DNA from: a virus
Direction: 5' to 3' (one strand)
Virus record (IMG/VR): IMGVR_UViG_3300035704_000008
Coordinates: 1 to 64,000 of that record
Length of the DNA: 64,000 nt
Shown: piece by piece, positions 2,491 through 30,949 of the stretch
How the letters are laid out: every line of letters starts with the position of its first letter
How positions within the stretch are numbered: the first letter of the stretch is position 1
Translations under genes and position numbers: made by a program
The notes under the pieces: model-generated
The model's database searches: none
The model's input: the letters and a program-made list of their open reading frames with translations, nothing else
Told to the model about the DNA's origin: nothing

Positions 2491-5400
2491 TCACCGCGAC
2501 CCGAACGCTGTCTGCACGTTGCCGCCGCCCTTGACCTTCACGTTCTTCTTCATCCAGGCGAGCATGAACGCGTCGAAGGCGCTCCCGGAGGAGGCCACCT
2601 CGAACCGGATGGTCGCGGCGCCGCCCTGGGCGGGCACGAGGTGCTCGGGCCGGCCGGTGCCGTTCCACACCGGGTTGAACCCGGGCCGCAGCGTGCCGCC
2701 CCGGTCGAATACCATCCCGCCGCGGGCAGCACCCGTGAACGGGCCGAGCGCCGACGCCAGGACCGTGCCCAGGTTGTTGGCGACGTCGCCGCCGTAGGTG
2801 TGGGTCGCCTGCACGCCCGTGGCCGGGGGCGCAGGCTTCACCGGCGGCTTGTGGGCGGCCAGGTACGCGTTGGAGTAGCCGAGCATCTTGCTGATCGCGG
2901 TGACGGTGGCCTTGTCGCGGCCCAGCTGCGCCTTCCAGTCTTTGACCGGCCCGGCGAGGGACTTGAGGTTCCCCGCCGCGCGGATCTCCTTGTCGAGGCC
3001 GAGCTCGTTCAGGCCGAGCTGGGTGCGCCAGGCCCGTTCGGTGGTCAGCTCCTTGCCGTACGTGGCCAGCAGCCGGGACTCGCTCGCCGCCGTGTTCGCC
3101 CAGAACCGGTGCTGCCCGGCGGACAGGCCGCCCGCCCTGGATAGTGTCCGGGCCCGGCCGGCTGCGGCGGACATCGCGGCGATCTGCTGGTTCAGGACCG
3201 TCGGCCCGATGGCCAGCCCGTACGGGCCGCCGTGCCGGGACTGCCACGCCTTGAGGTAGGCGGCGCCCTGCCCGGCGACCCCGCCGGACGCGTACCCGGG
3301 GACCAGGCCGCCGAGCGCGTAGCCGTGGCCGGAGCCGATGCCGCCGTACTGGTTGCCCAGCTGCGGCCCGTACACGTGCCGGGCGTAGTTGATCGCCGCG
3401 GCGATGTTCGCCAGCGGATCATAGATGTTGCTGCTGGTGCCGGGCCAGTGGTAGGCGCGGAACGTGGACCCGATGACCTGCATGAGGCCGCGGGACGGGT
3501 CGCCGCGCTGCGCGTTGATGTCGGTCAGGTTGATCGCGTTCGGGTTGCCGCCGGACTCGGTCTGCATCTGGTACAGGACCCGGGAGTCGAACGCGGTGGA
3601 CAGCCCCTCCATGCGGAGCGCCTGGTCGACGGTTCCTTTCCACCGGGCCACCCCGGAGCCGACATTGGGGACCTTCGAGGAAGTGATCGCGGCGGCCTTG
3701 GCCTTAGCCGCGGCGGCCACTGCCTTCTTCAGGTTCGCGAACTCGGCGCGCAGCAGGGCGGCTTCCGCGGCCTGGCCGAAGTTGTATTCGGCGTTCGCGG
3801 CGAACGGGGTCAGCCCGGCGATGCCGCCGCCCGCGAACCCGGGGATCCGGCCGCGGAGGTTGTCGGCGGCACCCGCCTTCACCATGTGCGCGGGCACGAC
3901 CAGCTCGCCCCGGCTGAGCATGGCGGGCACGTCGTCAGCAGTGGGGCCAGTGCCCTGCCTGATAATGCCGCCGCTGGCCAGGGACTTCAGCGAGAAGCCG
4001 CCCGAGCTGATGGAGGCGGCGACCTTCTGGGTGAACGTCATCCCGCCGGACCCGGACGCGTGCACGCCGACGTTGACGGTCTTGCCGTGCATCGCGTTGA
4101 TCGACCGCTGCAGCCCCTGGATGCCGCCGGAGACCCGGCCGACCTCGCCGAGCAGCGGGGACAGGTTCTGGGTGCGGACCGCATCCGACTTCGCCCCGGC
4201 CGCCCGCAGTGCGCTCAGCATGGTGCCCTGGATGGTGCCGGCCAGCCCCTGGATGCCGCCGGAGACCCGGCCGACCTCTCCCTGCAGCGGGACCAGGTTC
4301 TTCGTGCGCAGGGCGTCGGCGGAATCCCCCGCATGACCGAACGCGACGGCGGCCGCGTGCCCGATGCTGGAGAAGAACCCGCCGACACTGCTAGCGAAAC
4401 CCTGAGCCCACAGTTTCGCGCCGGACCCGACGTTGTTCAGCGCGCCGCCGACCGGCTGGCCGATCTTCGTGGTGAGCCAGGCTTCCAGGCCGCCGAACGT
4501 GAACGAGTGCAGCAGCGACGTCGACCACAGGTGCCCGTCGGCCTGGAACTGCGCGTTGAGCCGCCCGGCGAACGTCCCGGCCGGGGACAGCGTGTCCCCG
4601 ACCCCGCGGATAAGAGCCCCGACGATGACGCCGGCCGCAGCCGGGCCGAGCGCGGCCCGGAACGCGGCGAGGAAACCGCCGCCCGCAGCCTTGCCGGCCA
4701 CGGCACCGGACCCGGCCGCCCCGGCCAGCCCGCCGCCCCCGGCCGCGACGCCTCCGCCGGCCATCGCCGCGCGGATCTCCGCCGCCGCCGCAGCGCCGCC
4801 GGACGCGAACGCCGCCCGGATCTCCGCCCCCACGGCGGCACCGCCGCCGATGTTGATCACGCCGCCCGACAGCCACTTCAGCGCCGGGCCCGCGATCTTG
4901 ATGCCGACCTTCAGGACACCCGTCTTCTGCAGCAGCAGAAGCGCCCCCGCCACCTCGGTCAGCGGCTTCGCGACGGCCTTCGGGGTCCGCGCCAGGAAAC
5001 CCAGGAAATCAGTGACCAGCCGCAGCTCGAGGGTGCCCGCGCCCGACAGTCCCGGCGCGAACGCCGCCAGGACACCGCCGAGGTTCTTCAGCAGATCCTT
5101 GGTGACCGGCCCGTTGGCGCGGATCCAGTCCAGGAACACGGTCACGTCATGCCGGGCCGCCGCCGACTGGGACCAGCGCAGGAACGCGCCGCCCCACTGG
5201 TCCAGGTACACGCTGAACGCGCCGAAATCCACGTTATGCCCGGCCAGGTCACGGCCGAGATTGAGAACAGCCTTCCCGATATCGGTGAAGAACACCCCGA
5301 GAGCGCTGAGCTGATCCGCGGAGAACGCGCCGAACGCCACGGCGAGGCGCCGTATCTCCGCGGATCCCGCGCTGGAGGAGAAGTACCGGCTGACGGCCTC

Positions 5401-6252
5401 GCCCCAGGACTTGAACTGGTCCGCGACGGGCTGGACCAGCGGCCGGATGAACGCTATCCCCTTGCTGACCGCACTCAGCCACGGCACCAGCACCGGCGAT
5501 GCGATCTGGGCGCTGACCACCTTCCACTTGGTGCCGATCTCCTTGGACAGGTCCAGGACGTGGTTGTACGCCGCGCCTTCGGACCGGATGGCCGCGATGG
5601 TGTCCTGGGCCGCCGCGATCTGGTTGTCCGCTGAGGTCCGCTGGGCCTTGGTGGTGGCCTGCGAGCGTGCGATCTGCGCGGCCGCGAGCTGCTTCTGCGC
5701 CGTCTGGAGCTTCTGGTTGTCCTTGGAGACGTTGGAGAAGACTGACCTGGCCAGCGCGCCGAACAGGCCGGCGCCGACGGCTGCGGCGCCGAACGAGACG
5801 CCGATCGCGCCGACTCCGGCGGCGATCCCTCCTGTCAGCGGGATCAGCGCGGGGGTCAGCGCCGCCAGGGTGCCCTTCAGCGACGGGCCGCCGGCTTTCT
5901 CGGCTATCTTGCCGAACGAGTCGGCCAGGGTCCTGTTCGCCGCCGCTGCTTCCAGCGCGTTCCGGGCGTCGTCCTGCATCGCGTCGTCGAGGCGGCGGAT
6001 CGCGGCGTCCGCGGCGACCGCTTTCGCCGTTACCCGGTCCTCCGCGTCGCCGGTCAGCCGCAGGGCCTTCGCCAGCGTCGCCGATTCGGCGGCGGTGCGG
6101 TCCTCTTTCTTCCCCAGCGTGTCGATGGCGTCCGCGAGAACCTTCGCGCCCCGCGCGGCCAGGGCCGTGTTGTCCCCGACTTTGCGGATGTCGCCCTGGA
6201 GCTGCCCGGCGCCCCGGGACAGGAAGTCGAAGGTGATCGACTGGCCGGCCAC
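2491..6252 (-). CDS. Tape measure protein with lytic transglycosylase domain
   Basis: 1253 residues, the longest gene of the window. It sets tail length and is threaded through the tail tube. The N-terminus is alpha-helical and Ala-rich, with hydrophobic stretches around residues 120-170 and Ala/Gly-rich segments near 450-560. Two near-identical GRVSGGIQGL repeats occur mid-protein. Residues about 868-982 form an SLT-type transglycosylase domain (TESGGNPNAIN with the catalytic Glu, then SRGLMQV and YDPLANI), expected to cut peptidoglycan during DNA injection. It lies downstream of the tail chaperones as usual, but a plus-strand three-gene cassette separates them. Confidence 0.93.
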   Translation of the reverse strand: MAGQSITFDFLSRGAGQLQGDIRKVGDNTALAARGAKVLADAIDTLGKKEDRTAAESATLAKALRLTGDAEDRVTAKAVAADAAIRRLDDAMQDDARNALEAAAANRTLADSFGKIAEKAGGPSLKGTLAALTPALIPLTGGIAAGVGAIGVSFGAAAVGAGLFGALARSVFSNVSKDNQKLQTAQKQLAAAQIARSQATTKAQRTSADNQIAAAQDTIAAIRSEGAAYNHVLDLSKEIGTKWKVVSAQIASPVLVPWLSAVSKGIAFIRPLVQPVADQFKSWGEAVSRYFSSSAGSAEIRRLAVAFGAFSADQLSALGVFFTDIGKAVLNLGRDLAGHNVDFGAFSVYLDQWGGAFLRWSQSAAARHDVTVFLDWIRANGPVTKDLLKNLGGVLAAFAPGLSGAGTLELRLVTDFLGFLARTPKAVAKPLTEVAGALLLLQKTGVLKVGIKIAGPALKWLSGGVINIGGGAAVGAEIRAAFASGGAAAAAEIRAAMAGGGVAAGGGGLAGAAGSGAVAGKAAGGGFLAAFRAALGPAAAGVIVGALIRGVGDTLSPAGTFAGRLNAQFQADGHLWSTSLLHSFTFGGLEAWLTTKIGQPVGGALNNVGSGAKLWAQGFASSVGGFFSSIGHAAAVAFGHAGDSADALRTKNLVPLQGEVGRVSGGIQGLAGTIQGTMLSALRAAGAKSDAVRTQNLSPLLGEVGRVSGGIQGLQRSINAMHGKTVNVGVHASGSGGMTFTQKVAASISSGGFSLKSLASGGIIRQGTGPTADDVPAMLSRGELVVPAHMVKAGAADNLRGRIPGFAGGGIAGLTPFAANAEYNFGQAAEAALLRAEFANLKKAVAAAAKAKAAAITSSKVPNVGSGVARWKGTVDQALRMEGLSTAFDSRVLYQMQTESGGNPNAINLTDINAQRGDPSRGLMQVIGSTFRAYHWPGTSSNIYDPLANIAAAINYARHVYGPQLGNQYGGIGSGHGYALGGLVPGYASGGVAGQGAAYLKAWQSRHGGPYGLAIGPTVLNQQIAAMSAAAGRARTLSRAGGLSAGQHRFWANTAASESRLLATYGKELTTERAWRTQLGLNELGLDKEIRAAGNLKSLAGPVKDWKAQLGRDKATVTAISKMLGYSNAYLAAHKPPVKPAPPATGVQATHTYGGDVANNLGTVLASALGPFTGAARGGMVFDRGGTLRPGFNPVWNGTGRPEHLVPAQGGAATIRFEVASSGSAFDAFMLAWMKKNVKVKGGGNVQTAFGSR

Positions 6253-6332: not shown

Positions 6333-6581
6333 ATGAATCCGGTGATAATCCACGCGGACGGCACCGACTGTCGCCACGAAGGCAACCCGCAGGCGACCAT
6401 GCGCGATGATGGCGGCCCGCTCTGCCCGGCCGGCCAGCCGGTGACGCACATCCGGCTCAACGGCCATGTGCTCACCATCGAGCAGGCGGGCGCGGCATTC
6501 AGGCAAATGACCGATGCCTTCGCTAAGGCCGTCAAGCCGCTACGCGCTTTCTTTAGCGGGCTAGGCCAGGGTGCCCGGTGA
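6333..6581 (+). CDS. Hypothetical cargo protein
   Basis: 82 residues, ATG with a strong GAGAAGGAG ribosome site 6 bases upstream. First gene of a three-gene plus-strand operon inserted in the minus-strand tail module. The N-terminal part has Cys/His (DCRHEG, LCPAG) and the C-terminal part is helical. No family recognised. Confidence 0.7.
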   Translation: MNPVIIHADGTDCRHEGNPQATMRDDGGPLCPAGQPVTHIRLNGHVLTIEQAGAAFRQMTDAFAKAVKPLRAFFSGLGQGAR

Positions 6582-6715
6582 CCTACACGACCAACATCCG
6601 CCTCGACGACGACCTCGCCGAAGCCGTCAAAACCTACGCCAAGGCTAGCGGCGGCATCAGCATCGCCGACGCCATCCGCCTCCTGATCACCAAGGGACTG
6701 ACACAGAAGCCATGA
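6578..6715 (+). CDS. Ribbon-helix-helix DNA-binding protein
   Basis: 45 residues from a GTG overlapping the previous stop (GTGA). The pattern is a short beta strand (TTNIRLDDDLAEAV), helix, turn, then a second helix (SIADAIRLLITKGL), the canonical RHH/CopG fold that dimerises and binds operators. It probably autoregulates its own cassette or represses the late operon around it. It could also be an antitoxin, but no partner toxin is recognisable. Confidence 0.75.
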   Translation: MTYTTNIRLDDDLAEAVKTYAKASGGISIADAIRLLITKGLTQKP

Positions 6716-6897
6716 CCGCAATCGTGATCGTGTACCTGCTCGCATGGGTGCCCCTCGTCTTCGCCGGGCGCAGGCTCGGGAGGCGCCGGGGCAATCCCGA
6801 CGCGGGGTTCTGGCTGCCCGCCCTGCTCGGCGCGCTCGGCTTCGCGATGTTCACCGCGATCACCGTCGCCGACGGCGCGGCCCCGCGCAGGGGCTAA
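6712..6897 (+). CDS. Small membrane protein
   Basis: 61 residues, ATGA overlap with the RHH gene. Two hydrophobic segments (IVIVYLLAWVPLVFA; LPALLGALGFAMFTAITV) joined by a strongly basic loop (GRRLGRRRG) give a hairpin membrane protein. It could be a superinfection-exclusion or toxin-like moron product; function unknown. Its 3' end overlaps the frameshifted end of the convergent tail chaperone by four bases. Confidence 0.7.
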   Translation: MTAIVIVYLLAWVPLVFAGRRLGRRRGNPDAGFWLPALLGALGFAMFTAITVADGAAPRRG

Positions 6898-7375
6898 CGG
6901 CCGTCGCTCATCATCTCCTCGGCCGCGTCGATCAGCGCTTCGAAGTCCGCGATTTCGAGGAGGGGGATTTCCCACGGGCGGATGTGGAATTCGCGGGTGA
7001 AGATGACGATATACCGGTGCCGGTCGTATGTGTGCCATCCGGGTCCGGGCTGCCGGCGGGGATCGTAGGGCCCGCGCTGCCCTCCTCGCCCGCGGCCTGG
7101 ACGGCGGCAGCGGCGGATTCCAGCACCGACTGGATCATCTCGTGCAGGTCCAGCGGCACCGTGTCATCCAGGATGCCGGCCAGGTCGACGTCGCGGCCCG
7201 CCTGCCGCCAGATGAGCCACGCCAGCGTGCACATCGCCTTCGCGCCGCCGGAGGAGAGGTCGTCCTGCCATTCGACGTACCGGCGGCCGTAGGCTTCCTC
7301 GATGACGAGGGCCTCGGAGACCTTCGGCTTGGTTCCGTCGTACTCGAATACCTCGCCGTTCAGGGTTATCTTCAC
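6894..7375 (-). CDS. Tail assembly chaperone, -1 frameshift (GT-type) product
   Basis: A -1 slip at the heptamer 7067-7073 joins the first 103 codons to a 57-codon extension ending in TAG at 6894-6896, giving 160 residues. The extension reads as a natural domain (WHTYDRHRYIVIF, REFHIRPWEIPLLE, DFEALIDAAEE), with the PWE..LL motif seen in the T part of such chaperones. The fusion is expected to bind the tape measure during tail assembly. Confidence 0.8.
6932..7375 (-). CDS. Tail assembly chaperone, in-frame (G-type) product
   Basis: 147 residues when read in frame 0. The folded part (residues 1-100: ITLNGEVFEYDG, SEALVIEEAYG, LAWLIWRQAG) resembles tail chaperones encoded just upstream of tape measures. 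The C-terminal 45 residues are low-complexity Ser/Pro/Arg text, as expected if this frame is only the terminated product and the real tail lies in the -1 frame. Confidence 0.8.
   Translation of the reverse strand: MKITLNGEVFEYDGTKPKVSEALVIEEAYGRRYVEWQDDLSSGGAKAMCTLAWLIWRQAGRDVDLAGILDDTVPLDLHEMIQSVLESAAAAVQAAGEEGSAGPTIPAGSPDPDGTHTTGTGISSSSPANSTSARGKSPSSKSRTSKR
7067..7073 (-). promoter_or_regulatory. Slippery heptamer GGGCCCT for -1 frameshifting
   Basis: On the minus strand the heptamer G-GGC-CCT fits the X-XXY-YYZ rule in the zero frame (GCG GGC CCT), allowing both tRNAs to re-pair as GGG CCC. It lies at codons 101-103, exactly where coherent sequence moves from one frame to the other. Confidence 0.8.
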
Positions 7376-7840
7376 CTAGGCTCCTTCTGCTTTCGCGGCG
7401 ACGTCGCGCAGTGCCTGCTCGATCCCCGCGCGGACCCGCGGCCCGGCCGCCTCGGCGGGGCCGGTGAAGAACCCGGGCTGCACCGACGGCTCCTCCTGCG
7501 TGTACCAGTGCTCACGCGACCCGAACAGGGGGTGGGTGAGCCGGCCCGCGTCCAGGTTGCGGAGCTTGCGGCCCCCGGCCCGGGACTGCCCGGTGATGGC
7601 CACGCCCGGGTCGCGTTCGTTCGTGCGGACGTTGACGCCGAGCCGCAGGTCCGCGTCGAGGGCCGCCGCGTACCGGTCCGGCAGGTCCGGCCGGAGCCCG
7701 GCCCGGATCTCGTCCTGCACCGGGACGACGGCGTCGCGCATCGCCTTGGTGACCTCCCGGAGCAGGTCGCCGTCACCCGCGCGGCGCAGCCGGAACGCGA
7801 GCGCCTCCAGCTCCGCCGCGGCGTCAGCGAGCCCGGCCAT
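7376..7840 (-). CDS. HK97 gp10-like tail/connector protein
   Basis: 154 residues, ATG overlapping the upstream stop by one base. Helical N-terminus (AELEALAFRLRRAG, REVTKAMRDAVVPVQDEIRAGL) then a strand-rich part with FGSREHWYTQ and FFTGPAEA, and a C-terminal helix. This layout is typical of the gp10 family that completes the head-tail joint or tail tube. It lies after the major tail protein rather than before it, slightly unusual. Confidence 0.65.
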   Translation of the reverse strand: MAGLADAAAELEALAFRLRRAGDGDLLREVTKAMRDAVVPVQDEIRAGLRPDLPDRYAAALDADLRLGVNVRTNERDPGVAITGQSRAGGRKLRNLDAGRLTHPLFGSREHWYTQEEPSVQPGFFTGPAEAAGPRVRAGIEQALRDVAAKAEGA

Positions 7841-8265
7841 CAGGTGTTCAGGCCGCCGGTGACCGGGTTGTACCGCTGGATCTTGCTGGCCGCGTTCCAC
7901 GTGGTCTTCGTGTTGACCGGGCCGCCGACAGCCCCGTCCATCTCGAAGTCCGGGAGCACCGTGCCGAAGAAGTAGACGAGAGGGTCCGAACTAATGTTCG
8001 GGTAGAGGTACATGTTGCGGGGCAGCCCGTCGGTCGCCGCGAGGTACGTCTGACCTGTGGCGTCGTCCCAGAACCCGCTAAAGTCCCCACTTGAGTCGGG
8101 CAGCCCGGCGACGTAGATCTTGTTCGAGTCGCCGAACGCGGTGACGTCCTGCTTGTCGACGGTCATGCTCATCGTCCACGACGCCTGGAACGTGACGGGC
8201 GACGCGGCGGCGCCGTTGGTCACGCCCAGGTACACCGAGCCGTTGCGCCCATGGGATCGAGCCAT
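7840..8265 (-). CDS. Major tail protein, copy 1
   Basis: 141 residues. Beta-rich with SVYLGVTNGAAASPV, a DVTAFGDSNK segment, YVAGLPDSSGDFSGFWDD and GLPRNMYLYP. These blocks recur in the same order in the gene at 9614-10048, so the two are paralogues. The DVTAFGD..K and LPD..G.FSG..D pattern matches actinophage tail-tube subunits. This copy lies nearest the chaperones and tape measure, so it is the likelier main tube protein. Confidence 0.8.
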   Translation of the reverse strand: MARSHGRNGSVYLGVTNGAAASPVTFQASWTMSMTVDKQDVTAFGDSNKIYVAGLPDSSGDFSGFWDDATGQTYLAATDGLPRNMYLYPNISSDPLVYFFGTVLPDFEMDGAVGGPVNTKTTWNAASKIQRYNPVTGGLNT

Positions 8266-8269
8266 CTCT

Positions 8270-9316
8270 TTACCCCTTGCTGATCATGCGCAGTAGCGCC
8301 GTGGCGTTGTTGGTGAAGGTGCGGCCCTTGATGGCTGCACGGGCCTTTGCTGCGGCGTCCTGCCGCTGTTCCGGGTGTGCGACGGCCCACCGGATCTGGT
8401 CCCCGGCTTCTTCCGGCGTGGCGTAGGCCGGGAGCATGGGAAACAGCCCGTCGCCTTCGGGTCGCGGGTCCCTGGTGAACCAGGTGCCGCACGCGGCGAG
8501 CTCAACTTCGCGGGGGCCGACGGCCCAGCCTTCGCCTTCGTGCTCGTCTTCGGCTTCGCGGCGGTAGAAGTTGATGCCGGTCCGGGACTGCCGGTAGATC
8601 TCGGCGGTCTGCTGGTTGTCGACGCAGTTGTCGGGGTCGGTGGCGGTCCAGTCCCGCAGCGGCGAGTCTTCGGGGAGGTCGAGCCAGGGGCCGGCGAGGT
8701 GGACGTCGAGGCCGGCGAGGTCCATCTGCTCGAAGAACCGGACGCGGGAGGGGAACCCGGTGCCGATGAATGACAGGTCCCACTTCTTCCCGGCTGCCGG
8801 GTCGGCCGGGTAGTGGACGGTCTCCCTGTAGGCGTGGGGCATGTAGGCGGCGGGGACGCCGAGGGCCTGGTAGGCGGCGATGTTGACCGGGTCGTTGAGC
8901 AGGTTGACGTCGGCGTGGCCGGCCCGCTCGAGCTGCTCCCCGTCCTGGTAGGGCGATTCCGTGTGGAGCAGCACCACCTTCATGCCGCGGCCGCGCATCA
9001 CGTCGAGCAGGTAGGGCGGGTACCAGAACGCGGAGACGAGCAGGACCACGTCGGGCCAGCAGAGGAACGCGCCGCGGAGGATGTCGTGTGCGGCCATGGT
9101 GAGCGCCGTCTGACGGTCCCATGCTTTGCGCATCGCGTCCTGGCCGTTCTCGTCGGTGATCCCGGCCGGGACGTGGGCGGTCTCGAAAAAGCTGATCCGG
9201 TCGCCGAGGTTGAACGTGTAGACGTCCTCGCCGAGCCCGCGGAGCGCCTCGGTCCAGCCCTCGTACAGGTCGTGAACTGAGAAGTGAGGGCCAGGATGGC
9301 CGATCAGCCAGCGCAT
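8270..9316 (-). CDS. CgeB-like glycosyltransferase
   Basis: 348 residues, two-domain GT-B-like protein. The N-terminal domain has the LLHTESPYQDGEQLERA and NDPVNIAAYQALGVPAAYMPHAY blocks. The C-terminal domain has LSFIGTGFPSRVRFFEQM, HLAGPW, GINFYRR and REVELAACGTWF, characteristic of the CgeB/DUF3880 group. It would transfer a sugar from a nucleotide-sugar donor in the host cytoplasm. Its place between two major tail genes suggests that the tail tube is the acceptor; virion glycosylation by capsid- or tail-linked transferases is known in actinophages. Confidence 0.8.
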   Translation of the reverse strand: MRWLIGHPGPHFSVHDLYEGWTEALRGLGEDVYTFNLGDRISFFETAHVPAGITDENGQDAMRKAWDRQTALTMAAHDILRGAFLCWPDVVLLVSAFWYPPYLLDVMRGRGMKVVLLHTESPYQDGEQLERAGHADVNLLNDPVNIAAYQALGVPAAYMPHAYRETVHYPADPAAGKKWDLSFIGTGFPSRVRFFEQMDLAGLDVHLAGPWLDLPEDSPLRDWTATDPDNCVDNQQTAEIYRQSRTGINFYRREAEDEHEGEGWAVGPREVELAACGTWFTRDPRPEGDGLFPMLPAYATPEEAGDQIRWAVAHPEQRQDAAAKARAAIKGRTFTNNATALLRMISKG

Positions 9317-9329
9317 TACACTCCCCGGT

Positions 9330-9620
9330 ATGACGATGGATGATGAGCGGATCCGGGACTACGTGGCCGGGCTGCCTGAAGTCAGCGGCACGTTCACCGG
9401 CACGTTCGACTCAGCTGAGGTGGACCTAGATGCCCTGCTCGGCCCGGTTCCTGACCTGATGCCCATCGAGGTCGATACCGGCGACCAGCCGAATCCGGCC
9501 GCAGGTTTCCTGACGGTGCTCACGTTCAAGATCGGCGAGGACGAGTGGACGCTGCCGGTTGACCATGTTGACCTGCTCGGCGGTAACCGGGCCCGGCTGT
9601 GGGTGCGCCGCCCTCAGTAG
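9330..9620 (+). CDS. Hypothetical plus-strand cargo protein
   Basis: 96 residues, acidic, starting 14 bases from the divergent glycosyltransferase start, and ending 7 bases inside the convergent tail-protein gene. C-terminal half strand-rich (LTVLTFKIGEDEWTLPVDHV). No ribosome site precedes ATG 9330 or 9336, so translation may be leaderless. No family recognised. Confidence 0.6.
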   Translation: MTMDDERIRDYVAGLPEVSGTFTGTFDSAEVDLDALLGPVPDLMPIEVDTGDQPNPAAGFLTVLTFKIGEDEWTLPVDHVDLLGGNRARLWVRRPQ

Positions 9621-10048
9621 GTTGCGGCGTAGGTTGCGGCGTAGACGCTGCTAGGCCCGGTCCTGGTGACCGGCCCGGCGGCTGCCCAGTTCACGCTGAT
9701 GGTCACCGCTGTGCCGGCGCCGCCGGTGACGGTCAGGTCGGGCAGTACCAGGCCGGAGATGTACTGGCTCATGTTCGCCGAGTCGGGGTAGAGGTACATC
9801 GACCTGGGGAGCCCGTCGGTGGCGGCGATGTAGGTCTGTGACGTCTGGTCGTCCCAGAAGCCGGTGAAGGTGCCGGATGCGTCGGGGAGTCCGGCGACGT
9901 AGACGCGCTGGGTGTCGGCGAGGGTGGTGATGTCGGTGACGTCGCGGGCCCAGCTGGCGGCCCAGGAGTTCAGGTAGGCGACCGGGCTGGCCGCGTCGCC
10001 GTTGTGGACGGACAGGTAGGCGAGGCCGTTGCGGCCGTGGAGTCGCAC
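9614..10048 (-). CDS. Major tail protein, copy 2 (paralogue)
   Basis: 144 residues from GTG 10048 with GAAGGG eight bases upstream. It shares with 7840-8265 the blocks GRNG.AYL.V.NGDAASPVAY, YVAGLPDASGTFTGFWDDQT.QTYIAATDGLPR and MYLYPD. The C-terminus differs and ends in a duplicated YAAT unit from a 12-bp tandem repeat at about 9617-9640. Either the tube is built from two subunits or this copy is decorated or specialised. Confidence 0.8.
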   Translation of the reverse strand: MRLHGRNGLAYLSVHNGDAASPVAYLNSWAASWARDVTDITTLADTQRVYVAGLPDASGTFTGFWDDQTSQTYIAATDGLPRSMYLYPDSANMSQYISGLVLPDLTVTGGAGTAVTISVNWAAAGPVTRTGPSSVYAATYAATY

Positions 10049-10071: not shown

Positions 10072-10545
10072 TCAGCCCCACGGGGCGGAGTAGGCGACCC
10101 GGTAGGCGCACATGACGACGGCGCCGCCGGCGGACTGCCGGTAGATGAACCGGCCGTCGCTCGACCCGTCGAACGTCAGGTGGGTGACCACGGCGGCGGT
10201 GGCGGCGTCCTCGGCGGCGGCGAGCAGCACCTTGACGCGGGCCCGGCGCCCGGCGAGGTCGGCGGGGTCGCCGGTCTGGGAGACGACCAGGCAGTTGACG
10301 GTGCCGCGTTCGTCCTGCCCGGTGGTGGTGTCGGCCCACAGCTGCTGGTAGGTGCCGGCGAGGGCGGTGGCTTCGAGGGTGCCGTCGGCGGCGATGGTGC
10401 CGTCGTGGCCGACGATCACGAAGTCGGTGTCGGCGGCGCCGGAGGGCTGGGCCCCGTCGTAGACGGGGACCCCGGCGAGGGCGGCCGCATTCTGGTAGGC
10501 GGCGAGCAGCGCTGTGATCGCGTCGGTGAACCGGGTGACGCTCAC
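10072..10545 (-). CDS. Putative tail terminator / tail completion protein
   Basis: 157 residues from a GTG that overlaps the connector stop (GTGA). An N-terminal helix (FTDAITALLAAYQNA) is followed by a beta-rich core (VPVYDG, FVIVGHDG, GTVNCLVVSQTGD) and a long helix (RRARVKVLLAAAEDA). Size, order after the gp6-like connector and fold pattern fit tail terminators of siphoviruses. The family assignment is by context. Confidence 0.6.
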   Translation of the reverse strand: MSVTRFTDAITALLAAYQNAAALAGVPVYDGAQPSGAADTDFVIVGHDGTIAADGTLEATALAGTYQQLWADTTTGQDERGTVNCLVVSQTGDPADLAGRRARVKVLLAAAEDAATAAVVTHLTFDGSSDGRFIYRQSAGGAVVMCAYRVAYSAPWG

Positions 10546-17397: not shown

Positions 17398-18003
17398 TCA
17401 GCGGTAGGTGCTCGGCCAGATGTCGACCGTGTCCGCGGCGACTGAGGTGTACCTCACCCCGGCGTCCAGCCACCGCGACACCAGGTCCCAGTCGATCGTC
17501 GGCTCGGACTGCTCCCACGTCGCGACGTCCAGCAGACCGCGGCGGTGCATGATCGCCGGGACGCCGATCTGCCCGTAGCCCGGCGGGTCGGTGCCGATCC
17601 GGCAGCTGCCGTGCTGCGTGTGCATGATCATCCGCGAGTACGCGAACGCGGCATCCGGGTGAGCGTCCAGCGCGGCGGCGAGCACCGAGACGTGTTCTGG
17701 CCGGTAGGCGTCGTCGTCGTCGAGATAGGTGATGTACTCGCCCTTGGCCACGTCGGTGCCGTGCAGCCGCGCCCAGTGGCCCCACCGTGCCGCCGGGTCG
17801 TGCTCCGGGAGTTCGGCGAACCGCACGCCCGGCAGCGCCAGGGCGCCGAGTTTCTCCCGCAGTTCCTCATCCGGCCCGTCGGATACGACGACATGCTCGA
17901 CGGCCGGGTAGTCCTGCGCCTGCACGGACGGGATGCACCGGCCGAACAGCAGCGGGTGCCGCTGCCACGTCGGGGTGACCACCGTAACGGTAGGGACGCT
18001 CAC
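17398..18003 (-). CDS. GT2-family glycosyltransferase
   Basis: 201 residues from GTG 18003 (GTGA overlap with the epimerase). GT-A fold signature: VTVVTPTWQRH at the N-terminus, VSDGPDE, and the metal-binding acidic cluster YLDDDDAYR (residues 94-101). A later W..SEPTIDWDLV block fits the catalytic region. It would add a sugar from a nucleotide-sugar. Neighbouring epimerase and methyltransferase point to synthesis and modification of one glycan. Confidence 0.85.
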   Translation of the reverse strand: MSVPTVTVVTPTWQRHPLLFGRCIPSVQAQDYPAVEHVVVSDGPDEELREKLGALALPGVRFAELPEHDPAARWGHWARLHGTDVAKGEYITYLDDDDAYRPEHVSVLAAALDAHPDAAFAYSRMIMHTQHGSCRIGTDPPGYGQIGVPAIMHRRGLLDVATWEQSEPTIDWDLVSRWLDAGVRYTSVAADTVDIWPSTYR

Positions 18004-18797
18004 CGGTACGACTCCACTGTCTCGGCGAACCTGGCCGGGTCGAACGCAGGCCGCCAGTCCAGCCGGTCCCATCCCTCGCCTTCCGCCGCTATCTTCGCCG
18101 GGACCTCACCCAGCCGCATCGGCAGGTACACGGTCCCGGCCCGCGACCCGGTGATGTCCAGGACCATCGACGCCACCTGGTTCACCGTCATCGCCTGCCC
18201 GGTCCCGCCGTCGATCGTCACGTCATCCCCGAACTGCACGGCGTCGGCGAGCAGATGCGCCAGGTCACCGGCGTGGATCAGGTCGACCGTCTGCTCGCCG
18301 TCACCCCACACCGGTATCGGCCGGCCGGCCCACGCCGCGGCCGCGAACGTGGGGACGATCTTCTGCGGGTGGCCGGGGCCGTGTGCCTGGCCGGGCCCGT
18401 AGGCGTTGAATGCCCGCACCCGCGAGACCGGCAGGCCAGCATGATGGAAGGCCCGCTCGAGTTCCCGTCCGGCGATCTTGCTGGCCGTGTAGACCGACGG
18501 GAACACCGCCGGCATGGTGATCCCGGTGTAGCCCGCGCCGGCGTCTGCCGCGGCGGCGAGGACGTTCGCGGTGCCGATCACGTTGACCGTCAGCGCCTCG
18601 GTCACCCGGGCGAACAGCTCCGACGTGCCGAGGATCCCGGCCAGGTGGATGACGTGCCCGGCGTCGCCGAGGTCGAGCGGGTGCCGGATGTCATGGCCGG
18701 GCAGGTCGTAGGGCACTGCCTCGATGCCCGAGGCGGCCAGGTGGCTGGTGACGGCGCGGCCGATGAACCCGGCGGCGCCGGTGACGGCGATTTTCAT
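18000..18797 (-). CDS. NAD-dependent sugar epimerase/dehydratase
   Basis: 265 residues from ATG 18797 (ATGA overlap). An extended short-chain dehydrogenase with the NAD-binding TGAAGFIG (residues 6-13) and catalytic YTASK (Tyr103, Lys107). A short N-terminal extension from 18812 is possible but lacks support. It probably interconverts or prepares a nucleotide-sugar (UDP-glucose epimerase type) for the adjacent transferases. Confidence 0.85.
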   Translation of the reverse strand: MKIAVTGAAGFIGRAVTSHLAASGIEAVPYDLPGHDIRHPLDLGDAGHVIHLAGILGTSELFARVTEALTVNVIGTANVLAAAADAGAGYTGITMPAVFPSVYTASKIAGRELERAFHHAGLPVSRVRAFNAYGPGQAHGPGHPQKIVPTFAAAAWAGRPIPVWGDGEQTVDLIHAGDLAHLLADAVQFGDDVTIDGGTGQAMTVNQVASMVLDITGSRAGTVYLPMRLGEVPAKIAAEGEGWDRLDWRPAFDPARFAETVESYR

Positions 18798-19441
18798 CCG
18801 GCGAGCCGCCATTCGTCCACCTGTGCGCTCATCGTCTCCAGCCCGTCATCCGGCAGCACCGGCAGCATGTTGTGCGCGTCCACCGGCCCGGACGCCCCGA
18901 TCCACCGTTCGGCCTCCCACCGGTCACCGTCGGCCAGCGGCGCGAGCCGCCGCAGGAAGGACAGGTTGGCCCACCAGAAGTTCCCGCCGAACCAGCACCG
19001 CCACGGCGGCACCGGGCACCCCCAGTACCGCTCCGCGGTCAGCCAGTGCGGCCCGGCGCAGTCATGCTCGTCGAGCGCCGCGACGGCCTGCTCCCATTTC
19101 CCGGCGCAGTAGTACGTCATCCGCCGCCGCCACAGGATGTTCCGCCGGGACGGGTCCGCCGCGCCCTTGGTGTGCGCGTAGAACGCCTTGCCGTCGAGCG
19201 CCGCGAACGCGTGCAGCTTGCGGAGGGTAACTTCCTCATGCCCGGCGGCGGCCGTGGCCGCGATCTGCCAGCCGCCGAGCTCGGCGATGGCCGCCTGGCA
19301 GTTCGCGGGCCGGCCGACGATCCCGGCGGCCTTGTAGTCCAGTGCCGCGCCGAGCCCGGAGGCCTTCAGGGCGGCCAGGTGCTCGGCCAGCGGGTCCTGC
19401 CACGCGCCGTCCGCCCAGACGTGGTAGAAGTGCGCCAGCAT
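18794..19441 (-). CDS. Putative glycosyltransferase-like protein
   Basis: 215 residues, ATG overlapping the methyltransferase stop by one base. It contains FYAHTKGA, WRRRMTYY, GPHWLT and WFGGNFWWAN, a pattern in glycan-cluster proteins of phages and bacteria that behave like glycosyltransferases of uncertain class. Context with epimerase, methyltransferase and GT2 enzyme supports a role in glycan assembly; the exact reaction is unknown. Confidence 0.6.
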   Translation of the reverse strand: MLAHFYHVWADGAWQDPLAEHLAALKASGLGAALDYKAAGIVGRPANCQAAIAELGGWQIAATAAAGHEEVTLRKLHAFAALDGKAFYAHTKGAADPSRRNILWRRRMTYYCAGKWEQAVAALDEHDCAGPHWLTAERYWGCPVPPWRCWFGGNFWWANLSFLRRLAPLADGDRWEAERWIGASGPVDAHNMLPVLPDDGLETMSAQVDEWRLAG

Positions 19442-20004
19442 CAGCGGGGCGGGCCGGGCTCGACGACGGCCAGGCCCTCCGCCATCCCCGCGCCGTCCCA
19501 CCCCTCCGGCTTGCGGGCCAGCAGGAACACGCCCGGCGACGCCGGATCCGGGTCATGCTCCAGCTGCAGCACGTCCAGCCCGCACGCCTCCGCGATCCCG
19601 TCCATGTGGTCCACGGTGAACCGCTGGAAGTCACCGGGGTGCGGATGGTACGGGAACCCCGGCCCGCGGGCCGTCAGCAGCAGCACGCCGCCCGGGGCGA
19701 GCACCCTGGCGATCCCGGCCACCGCGCCGCGCCAGTCCTCCGCGTGCTCGAGCATTTCGGTTGAGATCACCACGTCCGCGGTGGCCTCGCCGAGCACCTC
19801 GGGGAGCTTCTCCGCCGGGCACACCAGGTCGACGCCCGGCCCCGGCTGCGCGTCAGTGGCGGCGTACGACGCCGGGCCCATCGCCTCGTACACGCTGCGG
19901 ACGGACCCGTTGTAGTCGTACGCGCCCGCCTCGACGACCCGGCGGTCCCTGATGTCCGCCGGGGTCAGCGCCCGCGACGCCCAGATGTACGCGGTGGGGT
20001 GCAA
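19441..20004 (-). CDS. SAM-dependent methyltransferase (class I)
   Basis: 187 residues from TTG 20004, just after the preceding stop. Motif I region VVEAGAYDYNGSVR, acidic TDAQPGPGVDLV, then ADVVISTEMLEHAEDW and LAPGGVLLLTARG are the usual methyltransferase-11 blocks. Given its neighbours it probably methylates a sugar, perhaps capping a glycan. The TTG start is chosen because no better start precedes motif I. Confidence 0.8.
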   Translation of the reverse strand: MHPTAYIWASRALTPADIRDRRVVEAGAYDYNGSVRSVYEAMGPASYAATDAQPGPGVDLVCPAEKLPEVLGEATADVVISTEMLEHAEDWRGAVAGIARVLAPGGVLLLTARGPGFPYHPHPGDFQRFTVDHMDGIAEACGLDVLQLEHDPDPASPGVFLLARKPEGWDGAGMAEGLAVVEPGPPR

Positions 20005-20578: not shown

Positions 20579-20777
20579 CGGACTTACCCGTGGCCGCGGA
20601 CTTCGCCTTCGCCACGGCCGCCTTCACGCCGCCCGGCGGGCTGTCCTCGGAGATCTTGTCGAAGATCCCCGGGATCGCCTTCACCGCGGGATGGTCGTCG
20701 GCGAACTTCTCGTTCCGCCGCACGTAGACGGCGTTGCCGTTCACGTCATACCAGCCGTTTTCCCTAGACAGGTACAC
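20571..20777 (-). CDS. Small structural-type protein
   Basis: 68 residues from GTG 20777. The N-terminus (YLSRENGWYDVNGNAVYVRRNE, shown in part) resembles small proteins of actinophage head modules. The C-terminus is Lys/Ala-rich (AAVAKAKSAATGK). It overlaps the end of the glycosyltransferase gene by 14 bases. Possibly a minor capsid or decoration protein. Confidence 0.6.
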   Translation of the reverse strand: MYLSRENGWYDVNGNAVYVRRNEKFADDHPAVKAIPGIFDKISEDSPPGGVKAAVAKAKSAATGKSDG

Positions 20778-21774
20778 GGTCCATCACTCCTTCGTAAGCC
20801 TGCTCCCAGGCGGTGTACCGCTGCTGGATAGTCCACGTGGCCGCCAGCTTCCTAGCCGCCGCGCCCATCTCCGCCCGCATCGCCTCGTCGTTCACCAGCA
20901 TGCGCAGGTACCGGCCCCACTCGTGGTCATAGCGGACCAGGAACCCGGTCACGCCGTGCTCGACGTAATGCCGGTACGGCTCGCTGTACGAGGCGATCAC
21001 GGGGATGCCGAGCGCCCCGTACTCCATCGCCTTCAATTGCGACTTGCCCCTGGCGAACGCGCTGGCCGGGTCCAGCGGCGCGATGCCGATGTCGAAATCG
21101 ACGCCGCGATAGTAGTCCCACACGTCCGGCGTCCACTGCGTGTGCCGCACCTGCCCTGGCGGGACCCTCCACTCCGCGATCGGCGAGTAATCCGCACCGG
21201 CGAAGTGGAAGTCCACTTGCGGATTCCTGGCCAGGAACTTCGAGATCATCGGCGCCACATACCTGAAATCCCGCAGGTGAGACGTACCGCCCGCCCAGCC
21301 GACGGTCATCCGCTCACGGCGGGGCCGCTCGATTTTCAGCAGGTCTTCATGAACGCAGTTCGGCAGGACGGCCACGTTGCTGTTGTACGGCTTCACCACG
21401 TCGGCCAGCGGCTCGGTCGAGACCGTCACCAGGTCGGAGATGGACAGCAGGTACGCGGCGATGTCCCGGCACTCCGGCATCTTGTGCCACAGCGAGCCCT
21501 CATGGTCGGAGCTGAACACGTCATCGTCGATGTCATAGACCAGGCGCGTCTTGCCCTGCCACGACTCCCACAGGCCCATGCCGCGCGGCCCGGTCAGGAG
21601 CTGCCCGGCGAACACGTCGATGTCGCCGGCGTTCAGCTCAGCGTCGGGCAGCCACACCATGCCCCGCTCCGGCAGCATCACGTTGTGACCACGGCGGCGC
21701 AGCTCGGCCAGCGGCTGGTAACAGCGGTAGTAGCCGCACCCGTCCGCGCCCACCGGCAGTCCGAAAACCTTCAC
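20764..21774 (-). CDS. GT4-like glycosyltransferase (GT-B fold)
   Basis: 336 residues, ATGA overlap with the preceding gene. The N-terminal domain starts MKVFGLPVGADGCGYYR and contains LVYDIDDDVF. The C-terminal domain has VGWAGGTSHLRDF, FHFAGADY, DIGIAPLDPASAF and the conserved LKAMEYGALGIPVIAS donor-binding block, followed by GVTGFLV. It is a retaining glycosyltransferase of the GT4 type, part of the virion-glycan island downstream of the capsid gene. Confidence 0.85.
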   Translation of the reverse strand: MKVFGLPVGADGCGYYRCYQPLAELRRRGHNVMLPERGMVWLPDAELNAGDIDVFAGQLLTGPRGMGLWESWQGKTRLVYDIDDDVFSSDHEGSLWHKMPECRDIAAYLLSISDLVTVSTEPLADVVKPYNSNVAVLPNCVHEDLLKIERPRRERMTVGWAGGTSHLRDFRYVAPMISKFLARNPQVDFHFAGADYSPIAEWRVPPGQVRHTQWTPDVWDYYRGVDFDIGIAPLDPASAFARGKSQLKAMEYGALGIPVIASYSEPYRHYVEHGVTGFLVRYDHEWGRYLRMLVNDEAMRAEMGAAARKLAATWTIQQRYTAWEQAYEGVMDRVPV

Positions 21775-21980
21775 CCGGCCGCCAGTTCATCTGCCCGGGC
21801 CATCCGCCGCTCCAGATCCTCCTGCCGGGCCATGATCAGCTTGCACTCCTCGAGCTTCGCGTCGAGCACGTCGGCGGCAGCGTCGTCTTCCATAAGGCAT
21901 GCAAGCTCGTGGGCGGCGATCTCCCACCGGAGCCGGAGCTCCTCGCGGACAAGCTCAAACGGGGTGTCCATAGCTCCCAT
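21771..21980 (-). CDS. Small coiled-coil protein
   Basis: 69 residues, start overlapping the previous stop by one base (TAATG) and its own stop overlapping the next start (ATGA). Highly charged, helix-forming (REELRLRWEIAAHELA, ARQEDLERRMARADEL). It sits between two glycosyltransferases and may be an adaptor; no family recognised. Confidence 0.65.
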   Translation of the reverse strand: MGAMDTPFELVREELRLRWEIAAHELACLMEDDAAADVLDAKLEECKLIMARQEDLERRMARADELAAG

Positions 21981-22618
21981 TAAATGAGCATCGTCGTCTT
22001 CATGTGGCCCGCCTTGACTCCCGTCGCCACGTGCACCGGGATGCCCGCAGCGCCGAGGCGCAGGCAGAACGTCAGATCCTCCCCGATCAGCGACTCGCCC
22101 ACCACCGACTCGCGGAACCACGGCGCCGCCGGGCACCCGCTCGACTTCCCCACGTGCTCCAGCGCGTCACGGTGAAGCAGCAGGCACGCCGCGCCCGTCG
22201 CCGTGACCCGCACCAGGCCGTCATCCGGCCAGGACTCGTGCCGGGCGAACACCAGCTGACCATCGGTCTCCACGAGCTCGTACATCGTCGGCAGCGGCTC
22301 CCCGCCCGGGTTCTCCGTGAAGCACAGACCCCCGACCACGGGCCGGTCCTGCGGGTCCGCAGCAGCGATCAGCCGGTCGATCGTGTCCCACGGCAGCCGC
22401 ATATCCGTGTCGCACATGAACAGCCACGGCGCGTCGTGGTCCTCGAGGAACCCGGTCACCACCATGTTCCGGCCACGGCTGATATTCGGGCCGGAGCCGA
22501 CCGCGATCACGTCGTCGACCGGGGTGACGCCCCGGCGGGTGATGGCCAGCAGCGACGCGAGGAACTCCGCGCGGACCGTCCCGCCGTGCACGTAGCCGAT
22601 GACGGCGTGTTCAGGCAA
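21980..22618 (-). CDS. GT2-like glycosyltransferase
   Basis: 212 residues from a TTG at 22618 that overlaps the endonuclease stop. It contains VIGYVHGGTVRAEF, SRGRNMVVTGFLE, LFMCDTDMRLP (DxD-type metal site) and TGAACLLLHRDAL, GEDLTFCLRLGAAGIPV. This pattern is the phage GT-A glycosyltransferase family often near capsid genes. It is the first gene of the glycan island after the endonuclease. Confidence 0.8.
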   Translation of the reverse strand: MPEHAVIGYVHGGTVRAEFLASLLAITRRGVTPVDDVIAVGSGPNISRGRNMVVTGFLEDHDAPWLFMCDTDMRLPWDTIDRLIAAADPQDRPVVGGLCFTENPGGEPLPTMYELVETDGQLVFARHESWPDDGLVRVTATGAACLLLHRDALEHVGKSSGCPAAPWFRESVVGESLIGEDLTFCLRLGAAGIPVHVATGVKAGHMKTTMLI

Positions 22619-23279
22619 GCGCGGGATCCTTCCTGGCTGCGGTGATATACCGTGCCGCGGCTTCGATGATCTCCGGGTCATCCATGAAGAACCCGACGCC
22701 CATGTTGCAGCGGTGACAGAGCAGGCCACGCACCCGGCCGGTCACGTGGTCGTGGTCAATGTGCCAGCGCTCGCCGCGGCCACCCGGCTTATCCGTCCGG
22801 CAGATGGCGCAGCGGTTCTCCTGGCGCTCGACCAGGCCGTCCCAGTCGGCCTGCGTCAGGCCGTACAGGCGCAGCGTCCGGGCACGTTCCCGCACCCGGG
22901 CGTCAGGCCGCGGGTCTTTCCGGCAGTCCGGGCACACCGGCTTGCCGACCGGTGTGTCCACCGCCGCGCCGCAGGCGCAGCGGCGCGGCCCGAGATCGGC
23001 GTTCCGCTGGATCTTCCGCAACTCAGCCGCTGCCAGGGTGCATTTACGCGAGCAGTAGATCCGCGGCTGGCCCGACGTACGTACGCGAGTAAACGTCACG
23101 CCGCAGTGCGGGCACACCATCTGCTCGGGTGCGTGCACCCGCGGCACGTACTGCGCTTTCACGAAATCCCGGTTGCAGGCCTTGCATTCAGCCCGCAGGC
23201 CGCCAGCGCCGGATATGGACCTGTGGAATTCGGACAGCGGCTTTACCTTGCCGCACCTTGTGCATTTCTTTTCGACCAT
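22611..23279 (-). CDS. Endonuclease VII-like HNH protein
   Basis: 222 residues. It has three cysteine clusters (CTRCGK ... CKAC; CPHCGV ... YCSRKC; RCACGA ... CPDC). The C-terminal recombination-endonuclease-VII domain reads LYGLTQADWDGLVERQ, CAICRTDK, WHIDHDHVTGRVRGLLCHRCNMGVG with the His-Asp-His metal site. Such genes act as homing endonucleases or Holliday-junction resolvases. It lies 98 bases after the capsid exon 2 stop and so sits beside, not inside, the capsid group I intron. Confidence 0.85.
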   Translation of the reverse strand: MVEKKCTRCGKVKPLSEFHRSISGAGGLRAECKACNRDFVKAQYVPRVHAPEQMVCPHCGVTFTRVRTSGQPRIYCSRKCTLAAAELRKIQRNADLGPRRCACGAAVDTPVGKPVCPDCRKDPRPDARVRERARTLRLYGLTQADWDGLVERQENRCAICRTDKPGGRGERWHIDHDHVTGRVRGLLCHRCNMGVGFFMDDPEIIEAAARYITAARKDPALA

Positions 23280-23446: not shown

Positions 23447-23723
23447 CGATTTGTTACCCGCGCCTCTTGGTGCGCGGGGCCAGGTCATTTCTGCCTGGCT
23501 CTGCACCTTTGCCATCGGTGCAGACCGGACTGTAACTTCACCTGCGGTCCATCGCCCCTATTGCACTCGGGGCGCGGCCCATGTCACAGGTGCCACACGC
23601 TCAGTCTCTACGGAACCCTGTAGTGCGAGGTTTCCACGGTATTCCCCACGATCTCGGAGGGGTTCACCGTTACGGTGCGGTTTTCACTGACCGATCACTC
23701 GGTCAGGCGGCCAGTTCAAATTG
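23447..23723 (-). ncRNA. Group I self-splicing intron in the capsid gene
   Basis: 277 nt between the capsid exons. The exon before it ends in U (GGU) and the intron ends in G, as in group I introns. The core reads GUAGAGACUG (minus strand of 23602-23611) and GGUGAAGUUACAGUCC (ending near 23527), matching the conserved R and S elements. GACUG (23606-23602) pairs with CAGUC (23532-23528) to form P7. Perfect hairpins include 8 bp at 23687-23706 (P2-like) and 7 bp at 23501-23523 (P9-like). The U at the 5' splice site pairs weakly in P1 (U-A rather than U-G as I fold it), so the exact P1 is uncertain. No ORF inside. Confidence 0.85.
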
Positions 23724-25076
23724 ACCGGACTGTCCTGTCGGGAGGTTGGCGCTGGCGCCCGTGCCGGTCACCATCGGCTCGTAGATGATGCTGACCCCCA
23801 CGCGATCCACGATGTAGTAGTTCGAGAAGTCCCCGAACACCATCGGCTTGTGGGTCGTGGTGAGCACCGGGTCGATGGAGCTGGACTCGTAGATGGGCTT
23901 GCCCATCAGCTGCTCCGGCTGGTCCTTGCCCAGGTTCGTCCAGAAGCTCGCGCCGCCAGCGGTGTCGAGCGCCCGGGTCCGGTTGATCTGCGCGACGTTG
24001 GCCACCCACGCGCAGTTCGGGGAGTTCCTGAACCGCGGGGGCAGCGCCGCGTGCAGGGTGTACACGTCGGCCAGGACGTACGCGCCCGTGGTGGCCGTCG
24101 TCTGGGTGGTGGTCGCGCCGACCACGACGCCGGTCGGCTGCGCCGTGCCGGTGCCCGTGGCGAACGCGGCCTCTTCGAGCCGGTCCTTGGCGTCCGCCAG
24201 CAGGCGCGGGAGCTGGGTGCCGAAGTCGGTGTCGGACAGGACCTCGAACGACCCGAACACCCAGGCAGCGGCCTTGAGCGGCGTGATGACGATGTTCCCG
24301 ACGGTCGGGGACGCGTCGGCGGTGGCGACGCCTTCAGCGAGCCACGCCGCGGTGACGCCGGCCGACGTGACGCCGTTCCACGTGTTCGACGTGGTCGTCT
24401 TCACGTTGGAGATCCGCCGGTACGGATTGGCGGACGCGTTGTTCGTCAGTACTATCGTTGGGTCCAGTACAAACGGAAGGAGGTATCCACCTGATGCGAC
24501 ACCCAGGTTCAGGGCGGCGCGGGCCGCCATGTCGTCGGGGTTCGCGATGTACTTCGCGAACGCGTCGTAGTATTCCGGCGACCCGGTCTCCAGGATGTGC
24601 CGGGCGATGTTGTTCTTGGAGAAGTAGCCGCCGTCCTGGACCTTCCTGGTGGCTTCCTCGGCGAAGTCGTGGACGACCATGCCCCGCTTGGCGACCTGCT
24701 CGATCGCGTCGAGGGCCCGCTCGCGGAGCTCGCCGGAGGGCATCATGCCGTCCCGGGCGCGCTGCAGCTCGGCGAACGGGTCGCGGTTGTTGCGGATGAC
24801 CAGGTCGGGGCCCTTGCCGCCGTTCCCGGCGCGGCTGGTGCCGTAGGGCCGTTCGAGGTTCGCCTCGTCCTCGGTGGCGGTGCGGGTGATGGACTTGATC
24901 TTTTCCATCCGCTCGATGATCGGCTTGGTGAGGCCGTCGAGCTGTTCCCACCGGGCGAGGAGGGTGTCGCGGAGGTCACCTTCGTTGTCCTCGGTGACGC
25001 TCTCGTCGTTCTCCATCCGCTGGAGTTCGTGCTTGATCCTCGCCATCTCGTCGAGGTATTCCTGCAGCGCGGCCAT
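23724..25076 (-). CDS. Major capsid protein (HK97 fold), exon 1
   Basis: 451 codons. Residues 1-110 are a charged helical scaffold-like delta domain (MARIKHELQRMENDESVTED). Then comes the HK97-type shell domain with SGGYLLPFVLDPT, NPYRRISNVKTTTSN, AAWLAEGVA, AWVFGSFEVLSDTDF, NCAWVANV and GKPIYESSSID. Unspliced, translation stops after six intron codons (to 23703), losing the C-terminal strand. The delta domain is normally removed by the protease encoded just upstream. Confidence 0.93.
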
Positions 25077-30442: not shown

Positions 30443-30949
30443 TCAGACGGCCCAGACGCCCGGCTGCGCGAGCTCCTCCCACCGGACGAACGCCCAGCAC
30501 GCACCCGTAGCCGCCACCAGCGGAGACTGATCAGTCGCCACCTTCGGATCCCACGCCTGCGCACCCGCCAGCGGCCTTTGCTCACCCGCCCGCACCGCAG
30601 CGGTAAGCGGCGGCTGGTCAAGATGAGCCATGCCCCCGCCATTGACGAGATCCAGGAATTCCCCGTGGCCGACCGCGACATCCTGCGCCGTCAGCAAGGT
30701 CACCAGGATCCCCGCCTCGGCCAGCGGCTTCACCAGCGTCCCGGACTGCGACTTCGGGTTCACCACGACCGCCACCGGGTCATGCTTCTCACTCAGGCCC
30801 GTCAGCCGGGCCACCGCGCCCCGCGGATGGTCATACCAGACCAGATCCACCACGATCCGCACGCCGCCCTGCTCACGGCCCGCCGCGACGATCGCGCAAT
30901 GCTTCCGGTCCTCGCTGATCGCCGCCCCGAACGCGACCTCGCCGCTCAC
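30443..30949 (-). CDS. Terminase large subunit, nuclease part
   Basis: 168 residues from a GTG that overlaps the stop of the ATPase gene (GTGA). It begins SGEVAFGAAISEDRKHCAI, the first strand of the RNase H-like terminase nuclease with the first acidic residue, followed by IVVDLVWYD, PVAVVVNPKSQSG and HLDQPPLTAAVRAG ... PLVAATGACWAF. In most phages this is the C-terminal half of one protein. Here the halves are separate but adjacent, probably coupled by termination-reinitiation. Confidence 0.8.
   Translation of the reverse strand: MSGEVAFGAAISEDRKHCAIVAAGREQGGVRIVVDLVWYDHPRGAVARLTGLSEKHDPVAVVVNPKSQSGTLVKPLAEAGILVTLLTAQDVAVGHGEFLDLVNGGGMAHLDQPPLTAAVRAGEQRPLAGAQAWDPKVATDQSPLVAATGACWAFVRWEELAQPGVWAV

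Follow-up and report, generated by a model that had tools for sequence, protein, structure and literature searches.

A glycosyltransferase gene paired with a tail-tube gene beside an insertion hot spot that holds a second tube paralog in an uncultured, probably actinobacterial, phage

Two tail-tube genes in one phage genome have been described among actinophages. In all 56 Gordonia DJ phages a single gene stands between the two tube genes, for example between genes 22 and 24 of FortCran (PMC12859696), and Microbacterium EL phages share the arrangement with further clusters (PMC11080557). A first-pass annotation of the locus described here stated that siphoviruses normally have one tube gene, to which these actinophages are known exceptions (PMC12859696, PMC11080557). 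In the records of DizzyRudy and Count, from EL and its kin, the terminator region is followed by two or three genes annotated as major tail proteins, among which another gene is placed.

Glycans on actinophage virions are made by phage-encoded transferases. Mycobacteriophage virions are reported to be glycosylated (Freeman et al. 2023, as cited in PMC10568470), and in SPP1 two tube forms that differ in their C-termini, gp17.1 and gp17.1*, occur in one tail at 3:1 (PMC8718954).

The present locus lies in IMG/VR record IMGVR_UViG_3300035704_000008, a 64.9 kb uncultured virus. The window, meaning the whole stretch of DNA analysed, spans 64.0 kb at about 70% G+C. Its late genes lie on the minus strand with small plus-strand genes interspersed, P96 among them. 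Relatives of the transferase in named genomes all belong to Actinomycetota (Klenkia, Micromonosporaceae, Acidimicrobiia), so the host of this soil phage is probably an actinobacterium. The features are as follows.

2491..6252, minus: putative tape measure protein, 1253 aa (length and position; homologs in relatives)
6932..7375, minus: putative tail assembly chaperone (position before the long ORF; homologs in relatives)
7376..7900, minus: conserved tail gene after MTP1 (phrog_11991; PHROGs 1.2e-15)
7840..8265, minus: MTP1, probable main protein of the tail tube, 141 aa with C-terminus QRYNPVTGGLNT (PHROGs; conserved directly downstream of GT in relatives)
8270..9316, minus: GT, CgeB-like glycosyltransferase, 348 aa (Pfam PF13524; co-varies with MTP1)
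9317..9329, no strand: divergent spacer, with TACACT at 9317-9322, 7 nt before the P96 ATG
9330..9620, plus: P96, antisense moron-like gene, 96 aa (homologs in L012, L049, L064, L065 and L116)
9614..10048, minus: MTP2, second tail-tube paralog, 144 aa (PHROGs; predicted tube fold; own clade)
9617..9643, minus: conserved C-terminal tail of MTP2, YAATYAATY-stop (also in L009, L040, L041 and L101; predicted disordered)
10072..10542, minus: tail terminator gene (VSVTRFTDAITALL...), bordering the insertion hot spot on its upstream side (assigned from position and family clustering, cluster C6)
23703-25076, minus: major head protein
25098-26420, minus: protease
28745-30178, minus: portal
30946-31887, minus: terminase

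Like the Gordonia DJ and Microbacterium EL phages, the locus has two homologous tube genes with one or few genes between them. The middle gene of the DJ phages is of unknown function, whereas here it encodes a glycosyltransferase; the EL-type proteins are larger than MTP1 and MTP2, and the EL block is without an annotated transferase. A tblastn search of 50,697 phage records at E 0.01 returned no relative of MTP1 or MTP2, a result with which distant kinship to the DJ and EL tube proteins would be compatible, and tblastn gave no isolate-phage relative of GT either. The second SPP1 form arises from one gene by frameshift; here there are two separate complete genes, and an SPP1-type frameshift extension was rejected.

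All four open reading frames called by the first-pass annotation are present at the coordinates given, and its reading of two paralogous tube genes with a shared core and differing ends is borne out. MTP1 and MTP2 share 53% identity over 132 residues (BLASTP E 2e-48), while their N-termini differ and their C-terminal 10-15 residues are wholly different, MTP1-type proteins ending in QRYxPxGGLNT or near it and MTP2 in TRTGPxxxYAATYAATY. MTP1 matches the PHROGs major tail family phrog_10528 (2.7e-10), and MTP2 matches the major tail families phrog_1407 (3.3e-7) and phrog_10528 (4.7e-7). An AlphaFold model of MTP2 (pLDDT 82) adopts a tail-tube fold, a beta sandwich with one helix, which resembles the monocin tube 8qhs (Foldseek E 3e-7, Z 13.2), the GTA structure 6toa (Z 12.6) and phage lambda gpV (Z ~10); the T6SS tube heterohexamer 9vne is a close structural match as well. 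On the strength of the 53% identity, the predicted fold is assigned to MTP1 too. In the window and in the gene order of relatives, both MTPs sit between the tail terminator and the chaperone and tape measure genes. By sequence, solved structures gave no relative of GT and one weak match of the MTP profile (8gtb, E 0.25), and the comparison with NCBIfam gave no matches.

GT matches Pfam Glyco_trans_1_2 (PF13524) at 5e-14 and 52.9 bits, the cut-off being 25, in agreement with the CgeB-like transferase annotated between the tube genes. It shares this domain with the CgeB family but differs in its linkage to a tube protein and in having no close isolate-phage relative. The sample of relatives comprises ~95 loci from IMG/VR and GTDB genomes. 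One of them, L098, is a Klenkia contig that has the GT-MTP unit and may be an inducible prophage. In 96 scored loci, which include near-duplicates from overlapping segments of some contigs, an MTP gene directly follows GT at a median gap of 27.5 nt, only six gaps exceeding 100 nt; whether MTP2 is present or not, practically all loci of sufficient length have MTP1 next after GT. Pairwise protein distances of GT and MTP1 are correlated (rho 0.74 across 67 non-redundant loci; none of 200 permutations reached this value), and in the 23 loci that also have the tail terminator the correlation is 0.63 for GT and MTP1 and -0.07 for GT and the terminator. Other neighbours co-diverge too (GT and phrog_11991, 0.52; phrog_11991 and the putative chaperone, 0.69), and since linkage alone also yields such correlations, the GT-MTP1 value is supporting evidence, though no proof, that the two work together. 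Adjacency and co-divergence with MTP1, set against the uncorrelated terminator, suggest that GT belongs to MTP1 and that MTP2 is the addition. The conserved partner of the transferase is thus a tube protein, but the reading of GT as a gene that separates two equivalent copies does not hold, since GT is coupled to MTP1 even where MTP2 is absent; if it modifies one copy specifically, as had been proposed, the candidate would be MTP1. The MTPs of L106-L108 are distant ones, and no GT was detected in their vicinity. No glycan acceptor residue was found in MTP1. The N-X-S/T sequon was considered as acceptor and rejected, NIS or NIT being present in some MTP1s and absent from many MTP1s that have GT; in MTP2, NMS is invariant.

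The tail terminator (cluster C6) directly precedes GT in empty loci (L044, L045, L056, L068, L078 and L088), where the gap between the two is -1 to 4 nt. Filled gaps reach 3.7 kb and contain MTP2, P96, other antisense genes, HNH genes and sugar epimerase/GT2 genes. Judged from these gene orders, the terminator-GT gap is an insertion hot spot, occupied patchily by MTP2 and the antisense gene. MTP2 occurs in five loci (the window, L009, L040, L041 and L101), which amounts to 3 of the 66 non-redundant loci in which 700 nt or more precede GT (L009, L040 and L101, L041 being a near relative of L040), plus the window. In the phylogeny of both copies, which the first-pass annotation had proposed, the MTP2s of the window, L009, L040 and L041 group as a single clade (100/100) whose stem is long, whereas their accompanying MTP1s fall in different MTP1 subclades (the window versus L040/L041). 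The tree rejects a recent tandem duplication, and by sequence comparison MTP2 is a monophyletic paralog of old and single origin, distantly related to MTP1 and added beside GT-MTP1. Among the relatives examined, a lineage has MTP1 alone or MTP1 with MTP2, and MTP2 never replaces MTP1. In L040/L041, a recent block is common to MTP2 and GT and does not include MTP1.

MTP2 retains nearly all columns conserved in MTP1. Purifying selection on it is clear in two pairs, with dN/dS of 0.24 (interval 0.06-0.61) and 0.36 (interval 0.18-0.68); wider pairs give 0.64-0.72, values compatible with weak constraint and inflated by low synonymous change at GC3 >0.9. The same limit on synonymous change led us to drop the dating of the MTP2 and P96 transfer by dS. 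The YxATYxAxY tail is present in all five MTP2 loci, and in L101 it stands behind a 30-residue Pro/Ser linker, a persistence which argues that the terminal peptide itself is probably functional. A long ORF with VPAV-type repeats in another contig (L058:214-1884) contains LYTATYAAVYG, close to this peptide. A second MTP in L074 (380-784), ~5 kb upstream of GT, belongs outside the MTP2 clade, which implies that second tube copies arise more than once.

The window also carries sugar-modification genes, assigned by Pfam and PHROGs (phrog_34859, glycosyltransferase, 1.2e-20).

17398-18048, minus: GT2-type transferase (Pfam; 75% identical to the L009 GT2 that precedes MTP2)
18000-18812, minus: NAD epimerase (Pfam; 82% identical to the L009 epimerase that precedes MTP2)
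19441-20004, minus: methyltransferase of the sugar-modification block
20764-21774, minus: group-1 transferase of the sugar-modification block
21980-22729, minus: further transferase of the sugar-modification block

An epimerase and GT2 pair directly precedes MTP2 in L009, L040 and L041; in the window the pair lies at 17-19 kb and not in the terminator-GT gap. That several genes for sugar tailoring lie within the structural block strengthens the case for virion glycosylation. An Endonuclease VII-like gene (22611-23279, minus; phrog_2633, 3.4e-38) adjoins the sugar genes and the major head protein.

In the explanation that we favour, which as a whole we hold at about even chances, GT and MTP1 form a unit beside an insertion hot spot that holds the accessory paralog MTP2 and the antisense, moron-like P96. 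MTP1 would build the tail tube, and GT, encoded just before it, would most likely glycosylate MTP1, either as a soluble protein or on the assembled tube, assisted by the epimerase, GT2 and methyltransferase that the phage also encodes; glycosylation of MTP1 is, in our judgement, fairly probable. MTP2, with its tube-like fold and changed C-terminal arm, would most likely join MTP1 in one tail, either as a minor subunit or in a single dedicated ring, and its presence in the virion is somewhat probable. P96 would be expressed separately from the opposite strand and would not be a part of the tube. It is doubtful that MTP1 and MTP2 instead co-assemble along the whole tail, at a fixed or random ratio and with the MTP2 tail as a decoration. 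Their common fold and conserved core, the structural closeness of the 9vne heterohexamer and a C-terminal difference of the kind seen in SPP1 (PMC8718954) and the Gordonia DJ phages (PMC12859696) are consistent with such a mixed tube, but MTP2 is rare and lacks the conserved MTP1 C-terminal motif, probably the inter-ring arm, and this changed arm makes mixing over the full length less likely. MTP2 could also be a passenger that arrived with the sugar-gene cassette, is little expressed and stays out of the virion, as its patchy occurrence in an insertion hot spot, its GTG start and the raised dN/dS of the wider pairs might suggest. Conservation of its reading frame, core residues and C-terminal tail across five loci, together with the two pairs clearly below 1, argues against a passenger, which we regard as unlikely. 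The first-pass annotation had further raised tube-type switching, which could proceed by inversion of DNA or by recombination of MTP1 with MTP2. Two homologous genes do lie near each other, but they have the same orientation, no relative has MTP2 in the place of MTP1, and no long repeats that would support switching were found, the sole inverted repeat of note being a 48-nt, 75% match between P96 and the MTP motif; we discard this reading almost entirely.

The target of GT admits other readings as well. Phage transferases can modify host surfaces, and GT may act on the host surface or on another virion protein, in superinfection exclusion or receptor change, with its position next to MTP1 being incidental. 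The lack of an identifiable acceptor residue in MTP1 fits that view, whereas the tight linkage and co-divergence with MTP1 and not with the neighbour on the opposite side, and the location of GT in the late structural block rather than an early or lysogeny block, speak for the tube protein, so that a target outside the tube seems to us a minority prospect. Specific modification of MTP2 by GT, or a glycan confined to the tyrosine-rich tail of MTP2, would accord with the conserved Tyr/Thr repeats of that tail, with the epimerase and GT2 genes immediately before MTP2 in three loci and with the recent block of L040/L041, but dozens of loci that are free of MTP2 have GT paired with MTP1, which makes it improbable. 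The variant in which MTP2 forms a ring, dedicated or mixed, whose YAATYAATY tail is a glycan acceptor or carrier, giving a second sugar-bearing subunit through GT and the epimerase/GT2 pair that travels with MTP2, is quite improbable too. Returning to the GT-MTP1 unit, both of its ingredients are known from other phages; what is new is the tight pairing of enzyme and tube and the conserved tyrosine-rich tail on MTP2. In the open-licence papers searched, we found no description of a tube protein that is inherited together with its own transferase and accompanied by a tyrosine-tailed paralog. If GT glycosylates MTP1, a widespread group of uncultured actinophages (~95 loci) would pass on a tube protein together with its modifying enzyme and so offer a clean setting in which to ask why phages put sugars on their tails. 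MTP2 would provide a natural tube paralog with a swapped C-terminal arm, making mixed versus ring-specific tail assembly directly testable.

The plus-strand 96-codon gene annotated between the two MTPs holds up as a real gene, because P96 has homologs in other contigs at 54-84% identity with pairwise dN/dS below 1. Its relatives occur in five contigs, most of them at the terminator-GT gap, and are patchy, being present in the gap of L012, L049, L064 and L065 and missing from that of L009 and L001. The fifth, L116, holds a distant relative; this contig is 139.6 kb long and has GT and MTP as well. An N-terminal block of P96, DYVAGLPEVSGTFTGTF, resembles the MTP strand YVAGLPDASGTFTG, with 15 of 24 residues identical to MTP2. 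P96 as a third tube protein was rejected, as only this ~24-residue block is held in common with MTP. The C-terminal half is predicted as a small beta domain in a poor model (pLDDT 57), for which no fold match was found. Read on its other strand, the divergent spacer gives GGAGTGTA-ATG, the GT ribosome-binding site (GGAG). The motif TAC[AG]CT-N6-8-ATG recurs in at least 16 other loci with different, unrelated antisense genes, and it resembles a leaderless actinobacterial -10 box. TACACT may be a leaderless promoter of P96, but the same element doubles as the GT ribosome-binding site. P96 is quite likely an independently expressed moron. Further small plus-strand ORFs lie between the minus-strand late genes at 2294-2479, 6333-6581 and 6712-6897, and the TACACT-N6-8-ATG element is absent upstream of these three.

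In L011 (7773-7994), MTP1 is split near codon 50, just before YVAGLPD, by a group I intron (RF00028, 45.6 bits, E 1.9e-8, just below the Rfam cut-off). Inserts of ~215-235 nt with similar motifs, not reported by Rfam, occupy that point of MTP1 in L109 and L110. The MTP-like block of P96 corresponds to the MTP1 point interrupted in these three loci, and, as a guess, intron or endonuclease movement may lie behind the block common to P96 and MTP.

The GT genes of some relatives show oddities of their own. At the GT start of ten loci (L008, L009, L011, L012, L032, L071, L073, L079, L084 and L102), an extra 4 or 7 nt follow the HPGP codons. The insert, which is not present in the window, always causes a +1 shift with an in-frame TTA at the site (TGA in L079), and in the +7 class TTAN is flanked by two proline codons; the GT protein is conserved on both sides of the shift site. 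An HNH-type gene is seen upstream of the shifted GT in L008, L011 and L012. The shift could reflect programmed frameshifting, bypassing tied to a homing endonuclease, or reinitiation, and the bypassing reading would be comparable to T4 gene 60. In L116 (5335-7542) a glycosyltransferase gene is split by an intein-like in-frame segment (CIDSSMRIST... HSHN), and in L005/L006 and L075 an in-frame insertion of ~56 residues lies at GT residue 201, the same place in two lineages.
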